Positions 53,003 to 62,333 of a stretch of 64,000 nt of DNA are shown here, piece by piece (within the stretch, counting starts at the first letter, position 1; each line of letters starts with the position of its first letter). A program made the translations under genes and the position numbers. The DNA is taken from assembly GCF_900111165.1 (NCBI RefSeq), contig NZ_FOGH01000004.1, forward strand, positions 1 to 64,000, given 5' to 3'. Below the pieces are notes generated by a model. The model was not told where the DNA came from, ran no database searches, and saw only the letters and a program-made list of their open reading frames with translations. The stretch comes from Nitrosomonas sp. Nm51 (GTDB lineage Bacteria; Pseudomonadota; Gammaproteobacteria; Burkholderiales; Nitrosomonadaceae).

Positions 53003-53720
53003 ATGTCTTCATGCTACAATCTGACCAACCAAGAACTCGATAGTTTGGGGTTTGAGCATCGTCATGCCGCTGACAAGCGTTATGCTGACCGGGTAAAAGC
53101 CCAAGTTGATTCCGGGCAAGGCCAATGCTGATCAGCAAAAGGATTTTGTTGAACGCTATCAAAATCTGAAAGCAGAAAAAGCACCGGATGATCCAGTTTA
53201 TTTCATGGATGCCACGCATCCGCATCATAACCCGATCGCTGGATATGGCTGGATCAGGCGTGGCCGGAAACATGGAATCCGCAGCAGCACGGGGCGGCAA
53301 CGCATCAACATCAATGGCGCCGTCGATTGCGCAGGGCTTTATCCAATCGTCCGTTATGATGACACTATCAATGCACAATCTACGGTAGCGTTGTTACAAC
53401 AGATCGGGCAACAGCACCCTGCTGCTGCCCGTATTTATGTCATCTGCGATAATGCCCGTTATTACCGTTCACAGATCGTTACCGATTACTTGCCGGATTC
53501 AAAAACCGGATTAATCTTCCTGCCGCCATATGCGCCCAATCCAAACCTGATTGAACGTTATTGGCGGTTTTTCAAGAAAGAAATCCTGTATGGCAAGTAC
53601 TATGAAACCTTTTCTCTGTGCAAACAGGCCTGTGATGATTTTTTTGCCTCACCCGAGCGCTATAAAGAATCGCTACGTTCCTTGCTGAACGATAATTTTC
53701 AGATTATCGATTGTACCTGA
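53003..53720 (+). pseudogene. IS630-family transposase with internal deletion
   Basis: The first 35 codons (LTNQELDSLGFEHRHAADKR, then YADRVKA) are an IS630-type N-terminus. The frame then shifts near 53100 and resumes as KLIPGKANADQQKDFVERY and the catalytic domain. That domain has the first Asp in YFMDATHPHH, the second in YVICDNARYYRS, and the Glu in PNPNLIERYWRFFKK. Most of the helix-turn-helix DNA-binding region is deleted. The catalytic residues survive but the protein cannot be made intact. A frame from TTG at 53106 would give 204 residues. Confidence 0.88.
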
Positions 53721-53986: not shown

Positions 53987-55786
53987 TTAGAACGATTGCA
54001 ACGGATTACGCTGTTGTTCCGTCAGCTTGTTTTGCCAGGCTTGTGGAAGATTTTGCACCCAACCATTATAAATAACTGGTATGGGTAGCAAGCCCTGCCC
54101 GCCCATCCCGTCATACGCACGAATTCTATCATCCATTATTGTATTTTCCGTTGACGTCAGCAATACTCTGCCAACTATTTTTGCATCTACAGGATTGCCA
54201 TCGCCATTCGGATCGATATCGACAACCTGCAATACGTTGGATGACTGGCTGCTGATATATGCATAATATCCGCCGCCCGCTTTGGCTCCAAACTGTACGC
54301 CATGGCAACCCGCCGCGCACGGCAAGGCAGCCACCAATTCATCTGTGCGTGTATCCAGAATCGTTATCGTATCCGACAGGATATTTGCTGTAACCATAGC
54401 TATACCATCTGGGCTAACCGGTGTTTGAATCGGCAGACCACCAATCGGGCCTGTGATTTCTCCTGTTATAGGATTGTAGTTTTCTAACAGATTGATTGTT
54501 TTTAGTACATTGCCCGTTGCAGTTTCAATAACGGTAAAAGTACTGTCCAGAAAATTCGCTACATAATACTTGCTGGAATCGGGCATCATGCCCGTGGCAA
54601 TAGGATGAGATTCAACACCACCGGTGCTTACGATGTTTTGAATGTCGTCCTGAACGAAATCATAGATCGTTGAGTCACCAGTAAAAACATTTGGTGTAAC
54701 CATAATTTCACCATCATGTCCCATCCAGTGCGCATGTGGACCAGGGCGACCGATATCAATGCGCCTTTCTACTCCTCCAGCTAGTGGCGATAATTCAACC
54801 ACAGATTCTTCATCATCCGAACCATTGATGGAGACATGCAGTTGATCGGTATCCACGCGAGTCATAACATGTGCGGGTGCTTCGCCAACATCAATACGAT
54901 CTATAAATTGGCCTGTCATACGGTCGAAAACTGTCAATTTGCTATCAAACCATTCGGTAACATAGATTAGGCTCTGGTCCCGGTCTGTCCACATATTGTG
55001 CGGATTGTTCATTTCCACATCCGGAAAAAATACCTTGCGTTTTACTTCCCAAGTAGACGCATCTACTACGGCGGCAGCCCCCGGTTTACGTTTATTGGCT
55101 GTTTTCTCGAATTGTGTGTTTATCCAAACTTCACCAACACCTGGAGGCGGCGTCAACAACGAAGGCAACGAGATATCATTGCCGTAACGCGCATTCAATA
55201 CTGTGGCCAGATTTACAGTTCCAATATCAATTCGAACGTCTACATCGGGATAGTTAATGTGCCATGGTGCGCTTGATGCAAAATTCTGCCAATTTGATGG
55301 TTCGGTCAAGACCAGGAATCCACGCAGTAAACGGGTTGCCAGATCGCTGCTAGTAGGTACGGTTATTCCATTGACCAACGTAATGCTATCGCCCAAATCA
55401 AGCCCAGGTGTATCGGGATCATCCACAATCACTGCACCCAACATGAATGGGTGCACTTGGCAGAAAAAAACGTACAATCCAGGCGTTGTTAATCTAACCC
55501 TTTCACTTCCCTTTTGCGGCGGCGTATCAAAAGGCATATTTTTTGCGCCAGTTGGATAAAGCAAGCTAGTCATCGTATGTACGGTATTAGAATCATCCCG
55601 TCTGAAATCAACTTCGACGCCAGGCCTGCCCACCGCAAGAGAACCAGACCCTGCTATTGGACCGCTCGAGTTTCTAAACCAATTACCCGGACCGTCATTG
55701 AGCTCGAAACGAATTCGGTCCCCTCCACCGGCCCAAACCAGGTTTGGAATCAATAAAAAAACTGAGATAAGCAACCACTTCTTCAT
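53987..55786 (-). CDS. Exported cupredoxin fused to a YVTN-type beta-propeller
   Basis: A 599-residue protein with a signal peptide (MKKWLLISVFLLIPNLVWAG). Residues about 20-130 form a cupredoxin domain with a type 1 copper set: His70 in TVHTMTS, then Cys109, His112 and Met115 in FFCQVHPFM. From about 225 to 560 runs a beta-propeller of YVTN/YncE type, with repeated strands such as LIYVTEWFDSKLTVFDRMTG, YYVANFLDSTFTVIETATG and TANILSDTITILDTRTD. A CAAGCH stretch (490-495) resembles, but is one residue too long for, a c-type heme motif. The fusion suggests a periplasmic copper redox or scaffold protein; its reaction is unknown. It sits between IS debris and tRNA-Val. Confidence 0.85.
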   Translation of the reverse strand: MKKWLLISVFLLIPNLVWAGGGDRIRFELNDGPGNWFRNSSGPIAGSGSLAVGRPGVEVDFRRDDSNTVHTMTSLLYPTGAKNMPFDTPPQKGSERVRLTTPGLYVFFCQVHPFMLGAVIVDDPDTPGLDLGDSITLVNGITVPTSSDLATRLLRGFLVLTEPSNWQNFASSAPWHINYPDVDVRIDIGTVNLATVLNARYGNDISLPSLLTPPPGVGEVWINTQFEKTANKRKPGAAAVVDASTWEVKRKVFFPDVEMNNPHNMWTDRDQSLIYVTEWFDSKLTVFDRMTGQFIDRIDVGEAPAHVMTRVDTDQLHVSINGSDDEESVVELSPLAGGVERRIDIGRPGPHAHWMGHDGEIMVTPNVFTGDSTIYDFVQDDIQNIVSTGGVESHPIATGMMPDSSKYYVANFLDSTFTVIETATGNVLKTINLLENYNPITGEITGPIGGLPIQTPVSPDGIAMVTANILSDTITILDTRTDELVAALPCAAGCHGVQFGAKAGGGYYAYISSQSSNVLQVVDIDPNGDGNPVDAKIVGRVLLTSTENTIMDDRIRAYDGMGGQGLLPIPVIYNGWVQNLPQAWQNKLTEQQRNPLQSF

Positions 55787-57339: not shown

Positions 57340-58074
57340 ACCATGTCGTGAAAATACCAAACAGTCTCTCAAATATGCCCTTCAGGGGCTTCCAGAAGCG
57401 CTTAACACGCATTTATCGTCATTTTCATCATTTTTCGTATCCTCGACGCGGATGCGACAGCGACGTTTTACGGTTATTTGCGCGGACTTTTCCAGTCAGA
57501 ACGGGCGAATATGCTGCGCATGGGAGAAGTCAATGAAGTTGGTCACCAGGCGATGCAGCACATGCTGACATCGGAGACGATTGACTGGCATGGGTTTGGC
57601 GAGCAAACTGCGTGTGAAACGGATGCGTTGTTGGGTGGTTCTGCTGCTGTTTTGATTATCGATGAAAGCGCTTTTGCGAAGAAAGGAGAGTCATCAGCGG
57701 GTGTTTCCCGGCAATGGAATGGCCGTCTTGGTAAGGTAGACAATTGTCAGGTTGGTGTGTTTGCCAGCTTGTGCCAGAACAGCATGGCCGGTTTGGTTGA
57801 TGTACGCTTGTATTTGCCGGAACATTGGGTGAGCGATTCGGGTCGTTGCAAGAAGGCGGCAATACCTGAGGGATGCTGGCATGTCATGGATGCCGATCAG
57901 GTCAAGCGCTTCCTAAGTCCCGGCAGTGACAATCTTATTGTTACGCGGGCAGGCATGCGGGCCTTAAAGCTTAAGAATGAATCCTACTTCAAGGCGCTGC
58001 CCGTGTGTAAATATGCGGCTGATCCGGCGCACCGGGGAGCCTTTTTTCGCAGGATCATGCGCGGGTTTTTTTAA
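57340..58074 (+). pseudogene. IS701-type transposase, 5' part, frameshifted and truncated
   Basis: A start region in one frame reads KYALQGLPEALNTHLSSFSS, then FFVSSTR; from about 57465 another frame continues ATFYGYLRGLFQSERANM. The DDE nuclease domain follows: VLIIDESAFAKKGESSAGVS holds a catalytic Asp, followed by RQWNGRLGKVDNCQVGVFA and YLPEHW. After CKKAAIP (about codon 133 of the second frame) similarity to IS701-type transposases stops and unrelated sequence (GCWHVMDADQVKRF onward) runs to a stop at 58074, which is followed by two hairpin-T tracts. The 3' part of such a transposase occurs at 59243-59629. Confidence 0.85.
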
Positions 58075-58391: not shown

Positions 58392-58721
58392 TTAAGTATG
58401 TGGGTGGCTTGCTGTAGTTTGTGTGGCTTTGTGATCGTACGGGACAATACCATTAAGTGTATTGCCAATTTGTTTTGACGCAGCATCTAACTCATATGCT
58501 TTCTGCAGGTTAAGCCAAATTCTGGGGCCTGTTCCAAAGAATTTGCCAAGACGCAAAGCAGTATCAGCCGTAACGCTGCGCTTACCACTCACTATCTGAT
58601 AGACGCGGTTCTTGGGCACGCCAATTTTTTTGGCCAGTTCAGCCGCGTTGATGCCAATAAATTCAAGTTCATCGGCCAGAATTTCACCGGGGTGTATGGG
58701 TTCGCCTATTTTCCTTGTCAT
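58392..58721 (-). CDS. higA: HigA-family antitoxin
   Basis: A 109-residue helix-turn-helix antitoxin of the HigA/VapI type. It starts MTRKIGEPIHPGEILADELE and carries the XRE-type helix-turn-helix AAELAKKIGVPKNRVYQIV, then GKRSVTADTALRLGKFFGT and PRIWLNLQKAYEL. It should neutralise the HigB toxin encoded 12 bases upstream and repress the shared promoter. The C-terminal tail (about 95-109) is His/Thr-rich. The pair is intact, lying between two IS701 parts. Confidence 0.95.
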   Translation of the reverse strand: MTRKIGEPIHPGEILADELEFIGINAAELAKKIGVPKNRVYQIVSGKRSVTADTALRLGKFFGTGPRIWLNLQKAYELDAASKQIGNTLNGIVPYDHKATQTTASHPHT

Positions 58722-58733
58722 GCCTTGTACTTC

Positions 58734-59009
58734 CTAATGATAATCGACGATTTCAACGTCATACGGTTCATCATCCCATTTAAAGCAAATACGCCATTGC
58801 ATATTGATGCTAATGCTGTATTGGTCCTTCCTGTCGCGAATCAGTTTTTCAAAGCGGTTGCTGGGGAAGTTTTCCAGTTCTCTTAGTGTTTCAGCTTCAT
58901 CCAGCAATCTTAAACGTCGCTCGGCCTGCCGTCCAATACCGGAAAAACGCCTTACGAACTCGCCGTTATAGAGTTTTTCCGTATATTTGTATTTAAAACT
59001 TCTTATCAT
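58734..59009 (-). CDS. higB: HigB-family (RelE-like) toxin
   Basis: A 91-residue ribosome-dependent mRNA-cleaving toxin candidate. It begins MIRSFKYKYTEKLYNGEF and ends YSISINMQWRICFKWDDEPYDVEIVDYH; the central RRLRLLDEAETLREL and the basic MQWRICFKW strand are typical of HigB. Toxin before antitoxin is the usual higBA order. The ATG at 59009 matches the family start, yet the predicted -10 box ends only four bases upstream, so the mRNA may be leaderless. Upstream of the promoter lies a further 190 bases with GGGGCTTCGCCCCCCGCGCC but no gene. Confidence 0.95.
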   Translation of the reverse strand: MIRSFKYKYTEKLYNGEFVRRFSGIGRQAERRLRLLDEAETLRELENFPSNRFEKLIRDRKDQYSISINMQWRICFKWDDEPYDVEIVDYH

Positions 59010-59242: not shown

Positions 59243-59629
59243 TTGCATGAGCAACCCTTAACCACTAAAAGAAGACTGGCTCAGATACAGACCCAGCGTT
59301 TCTTCATTGAACACAGCTTTCATGAGGCGAAAAGCGAATGCGGCATGGCCGATTATCAAGTGCGCCGATGGGATGCATGGCATCATCACATGGCGCTGGT
59401 CATGCTGGCAACGCTATTCTCGGTCAAGCAAAAGATGCTCGGGCGCAAACGATGGCCGATGTTATCCTTCAGTGACCTGGTGACCGTATTAGTGCACATG
59501 CTGCCGCAAAGACAACTTACCACCGAGGATCTGGCTGATATTATTCATAAGCGGCACCGACGACGGCTCAGCGCTAAAAAGTCTTCTGCCAGACGGAAAG
59601 TGTGGCTTTTGGGTAATCTGACAAAGTAG
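59243..59629 (+). pseudogene. IS701-type transposase, 3' part
   Basis: The frame contains RLAQIQTQRFFIEHSFHEAK, SECGMADYQVRRWDAWHHHM, and ends LLGNLTK. This is the C-terminal third of an IS701-type transposase, with the conserved Glu-His and the DYQVRRWDAWHHHMALVML stretch. The middle is missing; the 5' part is at 57340-58074 in the same orientation. Between them lie higBA and unrelated sequence. It has no start of its own and cannot act alone. Confidence 0.85.
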
Positions 59630-59678: not shown

Positions 59679-62333
59679 TCAAACTGCGATTCTTCGCGTT
59701 GGCCGCGACGGTTTTTTTGCGGCTGACTGCCGCCTGCGGTAGGCGATAATACTGACCAGAATGCCTATCGATATGACTGCAATCAACGGAATATTTCCTT
59801 CTGCAATGGCTTCCAGGTTTGGATCGAACAATAGCAGCAATAAGGCAACGGTCAGTGCGGGGACAATCGTTGCGAACAGACTGATGATAAAAATATTTTT
59901 ATACTTTCCCTGGAAACGGCATGATTGCAGATAACTGGTCAGCAACACCAGCGACAGCAATGTCAGGGCAACCAGTCCTACCCAGAAAAAGCTGCGGTTT
60001 TCGCAAACAAAGCGGTCAAGCGCGGAATCCGGCTGGCTGTTGCGGTCGGGATGCTGAAAATGCCGTACCAGACAACCACTGACAGCCTGTATCTCCTCAC
60101 AGCGTCCTGACATTTCCGCTGTCAGCGGCGGTTCGTTCAACGGCAGCGGCCAGAATCCCATACCGCCAAAATTATCTTTGAAATACACAATATCATCTTC
60201 CAGCTGTTCCCAGTTGCGATCGCCAAATTCGATCACGGGGATAATATTGCGCAGCAGCAGCTCGCGTAAGATACCATACAGACCATTATTCTCAATATCG
60301 AATCTTAATGTTTTTTTCGTTTTTGTCGTTGGCTCTTCAAGCAATACCAGGATCTTGCCGTTAAAATCATCGCGGATATCCATTTGCTGATAGGAACTGG
60401 CAGCATCACCGGCCTGAATGCCTGAAATGCGCTCAAGCAGATTAAAATGCTGATATAGCCCTTTGCCCAGTTCAGACTGCAGCACCATGATATTGACAAA
60501 GTAATCGCCTCCCGTGGCTTTTAACCGTTCCGTCAGCGCATCATAAAAGTTGTTAAACAGGTCGATCGATACGGTATCATCGGGGAACCCCCTGAAATCG
60601 AGTGTAACGCCGTCGCCTTGTGTCGCTAGCTGTACGGCGCCAAATGTTAATCTCGCATACAGGTCGCTCAGCGGCTGCGTGAGTAACTGATATATACTGT
60701 CTGCCAGCGAAGCAAAAACATTCGCCTTTTGGTTGGAATCGAGCGATTTCCATTCCTTTACCCAATACGACCGGTCCTTATGTATCACCCAGTCCACCCT
60801 GCTGTCGTGCTTTCGCGCCGTCTGAATAAATGCGCTGTTATCATTAAGAAACTGCATGAGATTGAATTTATTTTTGTCGTCGTTGACGTGATTAATCGCC
60901 CCGCCGGCATCAAACGACAATCCGTAATAAGCCACCCGTGACAACACGCTGAAATCGACTGTCTGCGGCGCATCGCTGGCAAGCCAGTAAGGATAAAAGC
61001 CGTATACAGTGCCCGACAAGTCATCCAGTACACACCCGCAATTACCACCGTCCCATTCTGGCGTCGCGGATGAATCATACCCCGGTCTTTTTTTATATAA
61101 CAACGCCACTGCGGGACGCACGGCATGTGTATACAGATTGCCGACAAAGGCATTGACATCGCGCTGCTCTGTTTCATCGCACGCTCCGGAACGCTGCCGC
61201 AGCGCATTGATCAATTTCAGATGTTTACGAATTTCGGGCATGCCGTGATAGCTCTGGTTGTTTAACAAATCGGTTTCCAGCGCCAGAAACGCTTCGTCGC
61301 TGATTTTAATCCCCAGAATATACTGATTATGCAGCGATGTTTCCTGGCACACGCCGATACCGGCGAGAATTTTAGCTTGCACTGCTTTATCGAACAGTAT
61401 CGGGTGCGGATAGGCGGTATCCGCTAATTCTTTTTCAAGCAACTCAGCAAGTACCGGATTCAAGGAAGCCATGAACGGATCGCCGATCATGGCCTGATTC
61501 AGGAACCCGATAAAATCCTTTGTAACCATCAGCGTCCTGTTGCGGTAATAGCGTTTAATCGCAGGTGACAACCGTTGAAACAAATCCGGATAGGCTTTCA
61601 GCACACCTGAGACCGCTCCCTTCAGCAATGCATAATTTTCGAACTGTTTATTCTCCAGCTTGAGCAGCGCTGCCATGATCTGCTCCTTACTTTGCAGCAA
61701 TTTAAAGTCATCCGCTGTCAATTGATAGTAATACATCGGCGATATTGAAAAATCAATGGCCGCGCCAATCGAGAACGGCTCGTTCAGCGACCGGTAGCGG
61801 TAGACCAGATCCAGCAATGCCTGATGTGAACCCTGCTGCCTGATATGATAATCCAGATCTCTTTGAAAACCGGGCAGCCTGTCGTTCCAGTCGGCAAATT
61901 CAGCGCTTAACAGGATTGCCGTTTCCTGTGGAAACAAACTGGCGAATTCGGCGATGGTTTCCAGACGATCGATCAAGGCGTCTCCATAATTACCAATCGG
62001 TTCAATTTTAAAATCATAGGCAAAGCGCTGCAGCCAGAATAATGTTACCGGGCCCATAACACTGTCCGTCAACGGTTGGCTGCTTAGCCGGACATCTCTC
62101 TTCCAGTTCAGATCCTGTCGATAAACGGTGGCAAGATTTTGTTGAATGCGATGGACGGCGGGCTGGTCGAGCCGGCTGAATTCAGATTTGTTCAGCAGTC
62201 GAGCAAAGTGCTGGTCGTGATCCAGCACATAGGGTACATGATCGCCGTATGACATGGCACTGGTACTGACACTGACACTGCCGGTTATCCAGATTAACCA
62301 GAAAAGTATCATTCTTGTGCGTTGCATTTTCAT
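59679..62333 (-). CDS. Envelope protein with GH18-like barrel in an eCIS operon
   Basis: An 884-residue protein. Signal peptide: MKMQRTRMILFWLIWITGSV to about Ala26. Residues about 55-130 include LTDSVMGPVTLFWLQRFAYD, similar to the peptidoglycan-binding-1 fold. A helical region follows to about 430. A barrel domain from 440 to about 740 starts YGFYPYWLASDAP, with strands LSRVAYYGLSFD, VDWVIHKDRS, GDGVTLDFRGF, YFVNIMVLQ and GGMGFWPLPL in glycoside hydrolase family 18 order. The catalytic DxxDxDxE motif reads DGVTLDFR (574-581), with Arg581 at the acid position. Three membrane helices lie at about 780-803, 812-835 and 846-866, then a basic tail. It overlaps the AAA+ gene by four bases (ATGA). 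I infer an envelope role tied to the injection system: anchoring or cell-wall recognition rather than hydrolysis. Confidence 0.75.
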   Translation of the reverse strand: MKMQRTRMILFWLIWITGSVSVSTSAMSYGDHVPYVLDHDQHFARLLNKSEFSRLDQPAVHRIQQNLATVYRQDLNWKRDVRLSSQPLTDSVMGPVTLFWLQRFAYDFKIEPIGNYGDALIDRLETIAEFASLFPQETAILLSAEFADWNDRLPGFQRDLDYHIRQQGSHQALLDLVYRYRSLNEPFSIGAAIDFSISPMYYYQLTADDFKLLQSKEQIMAALLKLENKQFENYALLKGAVSGVLKAYPDLFQRLSPAIKRYYRNRTLMVTKDFIGFLNQAMIGDPFMASLNPVLAELLEKELADTAYPHPILFDKAVQAKILAGIGVCQETSLHNQYILGIKISDEAFLALETDLLNNQSYHGMPEIRKHLKLINALRQRSGACDETEQRDVNAFVGNLYTHAVRPAVALLYKKRPGYDSSATPEWDGGNCGCVLDDLSGTVYGFYPYWLASDAPQTVDFSVLSRVAYYGLSFDAGGAINHVNDDKNKFNLMQFLNDNSAFIQTARKHDSRVDWVIHKDRSYWVKEWKSLDSNQKANVFASLADSIYQLLTQPLSDLYARLTFGAVQLATQGDGVTLDFRGFPDDTVSIDLFNNFYDALTERLKATGGDYFVNIMVLQSELGKGLYQHFNLLERISGIQAGDAASSYQQMDIRDDFNGKILVLLEEPTTKTKKTLRFDIENNGLYGILRELLLRNIIPVIEFGDRNWEQLEDDIVYFKDNFGGMGFWPLPLNEPPLTAEMSGRCEEIQAVSGCLVRHFQHPDRNSQPDSALDRFVCENRSFFWVGLVALTLLSLVLLTSYLQSCRFQGKYKNIFIISLFATIVPALTVALLLLLFDPNLEAIAEGNIPLIAVISIGILVSIIAYRRRQSAAKKPSRPTRRIAV

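Follow-up and report, generated by a model that had tools for sequence, protein, structure and literature searches.

The closest described systems each share part of their make-up with the protein studied here. Nitrous oxide reductase (NosZ) joins a seven-bladed propeller to a C-terminal cupredoxin domain with binuclear CuA, which has two cysteines, and its propeller holds CuZ, a site with seven histidine ligands according to the available part of PMC11573801. Pseudoazurin, amicyanin and plastocyanin are single small domains with a type 1 (T1) copper ligand set. Hydrazine synthase beta, YncE and the YVTN surface-layer proteins belong to one propeller family. Two-domain (small) laccases are multicopper oxidases (MCOs), and 9cck, from the ammonia oxidiser Nitrosopumilus maritimus, is by its title an MCO core with an extra cupredoxin.

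Like NosZ, the protein described below has a seven-bladed propeller, a cupredoxin domain and histidines where innermost strands begin, and its PH...DG and HG...GY motifs are similar to those of NosZ. It differs in that its cupredoxin is N-terminal and of the mononuclear T1 type with one cysteine, and in that its family conserves five hub histidines, spread differently over the blades. It shares fold and ligand set with the small copper proteins, and the propeller with the YVTN group; within that group, the aligned parts of 1l0q and 5c2v_B show no counterparts of the hub histidines, and no cupredoxin part was matched. Likeness to two-domain laccases lies in the partner or fused MCO of relatives and not in the protein itself, and the long forms differ from laccases in having the MCO ligands split over two proteins. 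Structure 9cck matches both our cupredoxin domain (Z 10.5) and the MCO part of the long form (E 2.1e-7), but has no propeller by title or by its 409-residue length.

A predicted exported protein with a cupredoxin domain and a YVTN propeller

The window, by which we mean the whole stretch of 64,000 nucleotides of Nitrosomonas sp. Nm51 that was analysed, carries the gene as an intact open reading frame with exact bounds and an ATG start. The predicted parts of its product are:

53987..55786, minus strand: coding sequence, 599 aa, exported T1 copper domain plus seven-bladed propeller (open reading frame and relatives)
55730..55786, minus strand: signal peptide, residues 1-19 (MKKWLLISVFLLIPNLVWA), Sec-type, judged by eye
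55415..55717, minus strand: cupredoxin domain, approximately residues 24-124 (family profile, DSSP, domain-only model, fold matches)
55139..55414, minus strand: connecting segment with two helices, approximately residues 125-216 (DSSP of the model)
54074..55138, minus strand: seven-bladed YVTN propeller, approximately residues 217-571 (Pfam, DSSP, fold matches)

The mature protein was modelled with AlphaFold2 at a mean pLDDT of 95.3 and a pTM of 0.94. PF21783 (YVTN/YncE) matched the C-terminal part at 33 bits (cut-off 27.1) and TIGR02276 scored 42.5 (cut-off 27.85); these curated scores and the seven blades of the model place it among the seven-bladed YVTN/YncE propellers. The top fold matches of the propeller were surface-layer and lactonase-type proteins. 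It superposed on 1l0q with Z 38.4 (rmsd 2.1, 296 aligned), on hydrazine synthase beta with Z 33.2 and on NosZ with Z 32.4 (rmsd 2.6, 304 aligned). The hydrazine synthase beta model NF052340 gave 35.2 bits against a cut-off of 560. SBP56, the methanethiol oxidase copper propeller family that we take to be PF05694, was not among the four Pfam families matching the protein at E <= 1; in the comparison with this family, the fold match to 2ece (Z 30.7) was on par with other propellers.

A first-pass annotation made from the DNA alone had described an exported propeller protein in an ammonia oxidiser. The open reading frame, the signal peptide judged by eye and the YVTN propeller all bear out the first part of that description; a 97% identical protein in Nitrosomonas marina Nm22 and an amoA-family gene in the genome of strain Nm51 itself bear out the second.

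The cupredoxin domain has a complete predicted type 1 copper site

The same annotation had proposed a complete T1 ligand set in the N-terminal domain, and we found the four residues at the positions claimed:

55577..55579, minus strand: H70, T1 copper ligand (86/86 rows)
55460..55462, minus strand: C109, T1 copper ligand (86/86 rows)
55451..55453, minus strand: H112, T1 copper ligand (86/86 rows)
55442..55444, minus strand: M115, axial T1 ligand (86/86 rows)

Cysteine, histidine and methionine are spaced C-x2-H-x2-M in the copper loop, which we take to be the amicyanin type. Lack of ligand conservation in orthologues had been named beforehand as one of two findings that would refute the proposal, and the proposal passed this check. 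All four ligands were identical in each of 86 distinct full-length relatives (65 short and 21 long forms; 86 distinct among 101 full-length matches), so the set is not a product of chance. They were also present in all five relatives found later, two of which are near-identical plasmids.

Modelled alone, the domain reached a pLDDT of 87.0, and its fold (VIA) gave Z scores of 11.0-11.4, with 11.4 to pseudoazurin 1py0 and 11.2 to plastocyanin 2plt; 2ux6, titled a pseudoazurin with an engineered amicyanin loop, was among the top matches. The family profile found 2ux6 at E 4.4e-6. The amicyanin model TIGR02657 scored 17 bits against 110.2. Since Pfam Copper-bind (PF00127) fell short of its cut-off (13.3 against 21.2 bits, E 0.11), we base the type 1 assignment on fold and ligands. 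From these we conclude that the N-terminal domain is a cupredoxin with a complete predicted T1 ligand set.

Conserved histidines at the propeller hub suggest a second metal site

The features of the predicted hub are:

54998..55000, minus strand: H263, hub histidine, blade 2 (86/86 rows; innermost strand start by DSSP)
54869..54871, minus strand: H306, hub histidine, blade 3 (86/86 rows)
54734..54736, minus strand: H351, hub histidine, blade 4 (86/86 rows; paired by hhalign with a NosZ CuZ-ligand motif)
54728..54730, minus strand: H353, hub histidine, blade 4 (85/86 rows)
54302..54304, minus strand: H495, hub histidine, blade 7 (86/86 rows)
54305..54319, minus strand: C490 to C494, likely disulfide beside H495 (both cysteines in 82/87 rows)

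The protein has 11 histidines. Seven of them reach a conservation of 98% or more, namely two T1 ligands and the five hub residues, and the T1 site and hub zone between them hold every histidine conserved to this degree. By DSSP the five lie from 2 residues before to 3 residues into the innermost strands of blades 2, 3, 4 (two) and 7; in blade 4, where DSSP gives only single and double bridges, the strand start was set by hand. The hub zone covers 41 of 354 propeller positions, which puts the chance of finding all five histidines inside it at about 2e-5, and a Fisher test that compared them with the remaining propeller residues of equal conservation, of which 12 of 59 lie in the zone, gave 8e-4; both values are guides, because the zone was drawn after the residues were seen and the blade 4 start was hand-set. 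A conserved glutamine, Q454, occupies the matching place of blade 6. In the profile alignments, neither 1l0q nor 5c2v_B has a histidine opposite H306, H351, H353 or H495, and H263 lay outside the alignments inspected. An identity filter at 88% left 55 of 75 rows in alignment A1, to which the window protein was added, and in alignment A3 several rows were cut by the ranges chosen.

We compared the hub with NosZ by mapping the CuZ ligands onto fetched NosZ sequences from the ligand list in the available part of PMC11573801, leaving out the minus-strand frames L112 and L113, together with L115. Judged from sequence and DSSP only, the register of the hub motifs resembles that of the CuZ ligands (PHNMWTDRDQ and PHAHWMGHDG against PHGCNASPDG), and a second likeness sets CHGVQFGAKAGGGYY against IHGLRPQRYPKTGY. 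Unaided, hhalign paired H351 with the NosZ PHG motif at E 4.7e-4, with a probability of only 32%. The superposition on NosZ is not specific, as propellers without a known metal site scored equal or higher. Membership of the NosZ family itself was rejected: the hub has five histidines and not seven, the copper loop has one cysteine and so is T1 and not CuA, and the protein scored 36.4 bits against the 700-bit cut-off of the clade III L-NosZ model (NF052460). Only one of 56 family members touched the NosZ model TIGR04246 (E 0.053).

Of 87 rows, counting the window protein, 82 have both C490 and C494, and in four of the five exceptions both are missing; a disulfide is likely, since the cysteines are kept and lost together. 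Heme c attachment at C490-x3-C494-H495 was considered and rejected, as the cysteines can be lost while H495 is kept in 86 of 86 rows.

The propeller had been cast as a scaffold for a redox centre. That view is incomplete in that the hub has a conserved histidine set of its own. Because five conserved histidines sit at the hub, where nitrous oxide reductase holds CuZ, the model and the alignments suggest that the propeller is probably a second metal site and not just a scaffold.

Multicopper oxidases lie beside or are fused to some relatives

A long form of about 920-980 aa carries a two-domain MCO N-terminal to the T1-propeller and occurs in Nitrosomonas, Nitrosospira, Nitrosovibrio and two contigs titled Nitrosocosmicus. 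Pfam found Cu-oxidase_3 and Cu-oxidase_2 in both long forms run (L100 and L122), and the MCO part of the long form from N. europaea matched 3tas at E 1.4e-15. The oxidase part has HTFHLH and HCHxxxHxxxxM and lacks HxHG in all 15 cases. The gene upstream of the long form also encodes an oxidase (326-407 aa), with HxHG and HDH in 14 of 15 and HCH in none; the exception, L089, is only 146 aa long. L100:5977-9776 and 14 further loci thus hold two adjacent two-domain MCO genes that have lost complementary halves of the copper ligands. Small laccases form their trinuclear copper site between subunits. Since the ligands are split over two adjacent proteins, a heteromeric trinuclear site would be the natural reading of the long-form pair.

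Four loci were examined, on two near-identical Methylocystis plasmids and in genomes G812 and G587. In all four, the gene directly upstream of the T1-propeller encodes a two-domain MCO whose four ligand motifs all fall within one open frame, and these T1-propellers keep the T1 and hub residues. The G812 partner matched small laccases 9ix9 and 4n8u at E of about 1e-32. At the Nitrospira loci L079 and L109, a larger oxidase gene adjoins a paralogue (Pfam on L079). Two multicopper oxidase genes were induced in phage-infected N. europaea, with LFC of 6.16 and 6.14, in the available part of PMC13356812.

The window copy is a solo form with no MCO beside it. The only other family match in the Nm51 genome is a half-propeller remnant of a long form, and the genes on one side of it resemble, by eye, those beside the intact pair in G006. 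On the same genome's contig C49 we also observed an exported protein of 463 aa (L121:5654-7045, minus strand) that resembles YVTN proteins weakly and has no Pfam match. Its gene adjoins a SCO1/SenC copper chaperone gene (L121:4935-5540) and the decayed long-form copy. This gene set may be reminiscent of methanethiol oxidase operons.

The family is enriched in copper-monooxygenase organisms

We found the family in 81 of 120 Nitrosomonadaceae genomes. The amoA family (PF02461) was present in 67 of the same 120 and both were present in 49, which leaves 18 of 67 amoA-bearing genomes without the family (E 1e-60). Within one Nitrospira genus, 45 of 79 genomes had the family and 49 had amoA (both 32, family only 13, amoA only 17, neither 17); the association was not significant (Fisher p 0.065), and 17 of the 49 amoA-bearing genomes were without the family (E 1e-60). 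Some absences may be gaps, because many of the genomes are drafts.

Wider samples gave few members: 13 of 198 Nitrospirota genomes, and four of 369 genomes of the class, namely the Nm51 genome, one of the same genus, and G587 and G812 from other families. Among 72,556 plasmid records, two matched at E 1e-20, both from Methylocystis rosea; Methylocystis is a methanotroph. By title, the 78 loci of nearest relatives, a list that is biased to these because it keeps only them, divide into 44 Nitrosomonadaceae, 18 Nitrospira and 16 others. The others include several groundwater MAGs and a few records titled as archaea, whose contigs may be misbinned. PF02461 was found in 14 of the 31 genomes behind the Nitrospira-titled and other loci. 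A pmoB/amoB-type gene was present in one of seven genomes, G812, and in none of G587, G146 (betaproteobacterial by title), G154, G158, G160 and G161, the last five being MAGs.

Given these genome, MAG and plasmid counts, we conclude that the family is enriched in copper-monooxygenase organisms and is neither universal in them nor confined to them. It is frequent in ammonia oxidisers and rare elsewhere among the genomes sampled. The first-pass annotation had also suggested periplasmic electron transfer in an ammonia oxidiser. The host part of that suggestion holds, and the 18 of 67 weaken the case for a role in ammonia oxidation itself; with the 17 of 49 in Nitrospira, we rejected a core step of ammonia oxidation.

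The window gene belongs to a second lineage of plausibly lateral origin

The window copy sits between flagellar genes (flhB) and transposase remnants, and these remnants, on both sides of the gene, match the mobile debris previously described there:

53106..53720, plus strand: DDE_3 transposase remnant beside the gene (PF13358)
57478..58074, plus strand: DDE_5 transposase fragment (PF13546)
59243..59629, plus strand: DDE_Tnp_1 fragment (PF01609, below cut-off, 18.2 against 23 bits)

Two further observations concern these surroundings. At 58392-59009 (minus strand), two small adjoining open reading frames of 109 and 91 aa look by eye like a HigA/HigB toxin-antitoxin pair, and at 59679-62333 (minus strand) lies an 884-aa protein with a weak DUF4010 match (21.5 against 30 bits).

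A comparison of the window with Nm22 (L032) gave a 95% alignment that spans the gene and roughly 84 bases upstream of it; elsewhere the flanks give short scattered matches only (49-321 bases, 77-85%). In the tree, the window protein groups with those of Nm22, HKST-UBA151 and two copies from Nm33, apart from a 44-row clade (support 100/99) that comprises the short forms of Nitrospira and of the other Nitrosomonas. Both kinds occur in Nm33. The window clade is a second lineage by the tree, possibly a mobile one. Horizontal acquisition had been raised earlier; the separate clade, the two kinds in Nm33 and the differing flanks in Nm22 make a lateral origin plausible, and we put it no more firmly than that.

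The solo forms of Nitrosomonas and Nitrospira have neighbours in common across phyla, as clustered by single-linkage BLAST. An outer-membrane-barrel family lies beside 22 of 79 loci (15 Nitrosomonas-type, 7 Nitrospira), with Pfam Phenol_MetA_deg in the Nitrospira member run and none in the Nitrosomonas member run. Because the barrel proteins hold Gly/Asp-rich stretches, we repeated the search with low-complexity masking, and 98 Nitrosomonas-type/Nitrospira pairs still matched, all at E 1e-5 or better. DUF5666 proteins are neighbours at 15 Nitrosomonas-type and 5 Nitrospira loci (Pfam on one of each). Across the 79 loci compared, none of these clusters lies beside the window copy.

After the MCO/T1-propeller pair, the Methylocystis plasmid carries folE, a norB with an internal stop, SirB2 and NnrS. 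This is a nitric-oxide gene neighbourhood, one island on two near-identical plasmids. G587 shares with it a sigma factor, the oxidase and folE, and its contig ends soon after folE. The plasmid norB (NO reductase; L125:11982-14288) consists of two pieces in one frame with a stop codon between them. Directly upstream of the T1-propeller in nine Nitrospira loci (L036, L044, L046, L048, L049, L065, L079, L081 and L087) is a block of radical SAM/SPASM, DUF547, a further protein and a glycosyltransferase (Pfam on L079). One of the two copies in L083, a record titled uncultured Nitrosospira that may be mislabelled or chimeric, groups with Nitrospira.

A proposed copper oxidoreductase module and its alternatives

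Our reading starts from the computed domain make-up, T1 ligands, hub histidines, MCO adjacency or fusion in relatives and distribution. We favour, at a probability of roughly 55%, a periplasmic copper oxidoreductase module with a hub metal site and a T1 electron carrier. The five hub histidines would hold a catalytic metal site, most likely copper, at which a substrate would be oxidised, and the T1 domain would move single electrons between this site and an outside partner, presumably in that direction. In some relatives the partner would be the two-domain, small-laccase type MCO encoded upstream or fused N-terminally, through which electrons would reach oxygen; for a solo form such as the window copy, this role could fall to a cytochrome c or to an oxidase whose gene lies elsewhere. 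Against this model, no MCO adjoins the solo form and the shared neighbours (DUF5666 and the barrel family) are not redox-like, the five histidines could instead serve folding or a structural metal, and the NosZ superposition is unspecific among propellers.

The main rival, which we consider unlikely, is copper handling. The protein would receive, store or oxidise periplasmic Cu(I) in bacteria that need much copper, the hub copper would be cargo and the laccase-type partner a cuprous oxidase. Many hosts have copper monooxygenases, and among the MCO models matching the partner a copper-resistance one scores best, at 22.8 to 101.2 bits over four proteins, which is far short of its cut-off of 478.95. 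However, storage proteins do not usually have a complete T1 site, the Methylocystis plasmid neighbours include NO genes, and the few annotated neighbours include only one gene for copper export or a copper chaperone, SCO1 near the decayed copy in the Nm51 genome.

The protein could also be a plain electron carrier, with redox activity confined to the T1 site, a propeller that serves for docking and hub histidines that have a structural task. Most YVTN propellers are docking folds without catalytic activity, and the closest fold matches are of the surface-layer and lactonase type. We nevertheless regard this as distinctly improbable, given that the histidines conserved in at least 98% of rows are confined to the T1 site and hub zone and that 1l0q and 5c2v_B have no histidine opposite four of the five hub residues. 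That the protein is related to nitrous oxide reductase and has kept N2O reduction, in the manner of clade III, is highly improbable: although 52 of 56 family members match the L-NosZ model (best E 2.4e-16), the scores are tiny beside its cut-off (59.5 for L120) and similar to those with hydrazine synthase beta and generic YVTN models, histidine number and copper-site type differ as set out above, and no nos accessory gene was found among the few neighbours annotated.

Within the oxidoreductase model, a small reactive nitrogen compound (NO or hydroxylamine) would be one candidate substrate among several, suggested by the shared life style of many hosts and by the Methylocystis plasmid neighbours. 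The patchy presence of the family argues against an essential role as the NO oxidoreductase of nitrifiers. A long shot would be the fuller scheme in which a five-histidine hub copper enzyme, wired through T1 to a sometimes split oxidase, oxidises NO (or hydroxylamine) in ammonia and methane oxidisers as an auxiliary NO oxidoreductase, comammox Nitrospira included.

Significance

No description of a family with a T1 cupredoxin and a histidine-hub propeller, with or without an MCO, was found in our searches of the open-access literature or in the available parts of PMC13122619, PMC11573801, PMC6769254, PMC12758564, PMC13374858, PMC2844404, PMC9797979, PMC13356812, PMC10781756 and PMC6478695. The predicted folds are known ones in a combination for which we found no description: a T1 cupredoxin, a histidine-hub propeller and, beside or fused in some relatives, an MCO. 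From its sequences the family looks like a copper enzyme that has yet to be described. Should copper bind at the hub, the site would join CuZ as a propeller-hub copper centre. In the long forms, the split oxidase neatly illustrates how adjacent proteins can lose metal ligands in a complementary way.

The family recurs in ammonia oxidisers, in amoA-bearing Nitrospira and in some methanotroph-type genomes. PMC6478695 describes as unknown the enzyme with which nitrifiers turn NO into nitrite; nitrosocyanin, the favoured candidate for NO oxidation, is absent from the comammox genomes analysed there. A copper family common to nitrifier groups would be a testable, though not universal, candidate for NO oxidation.
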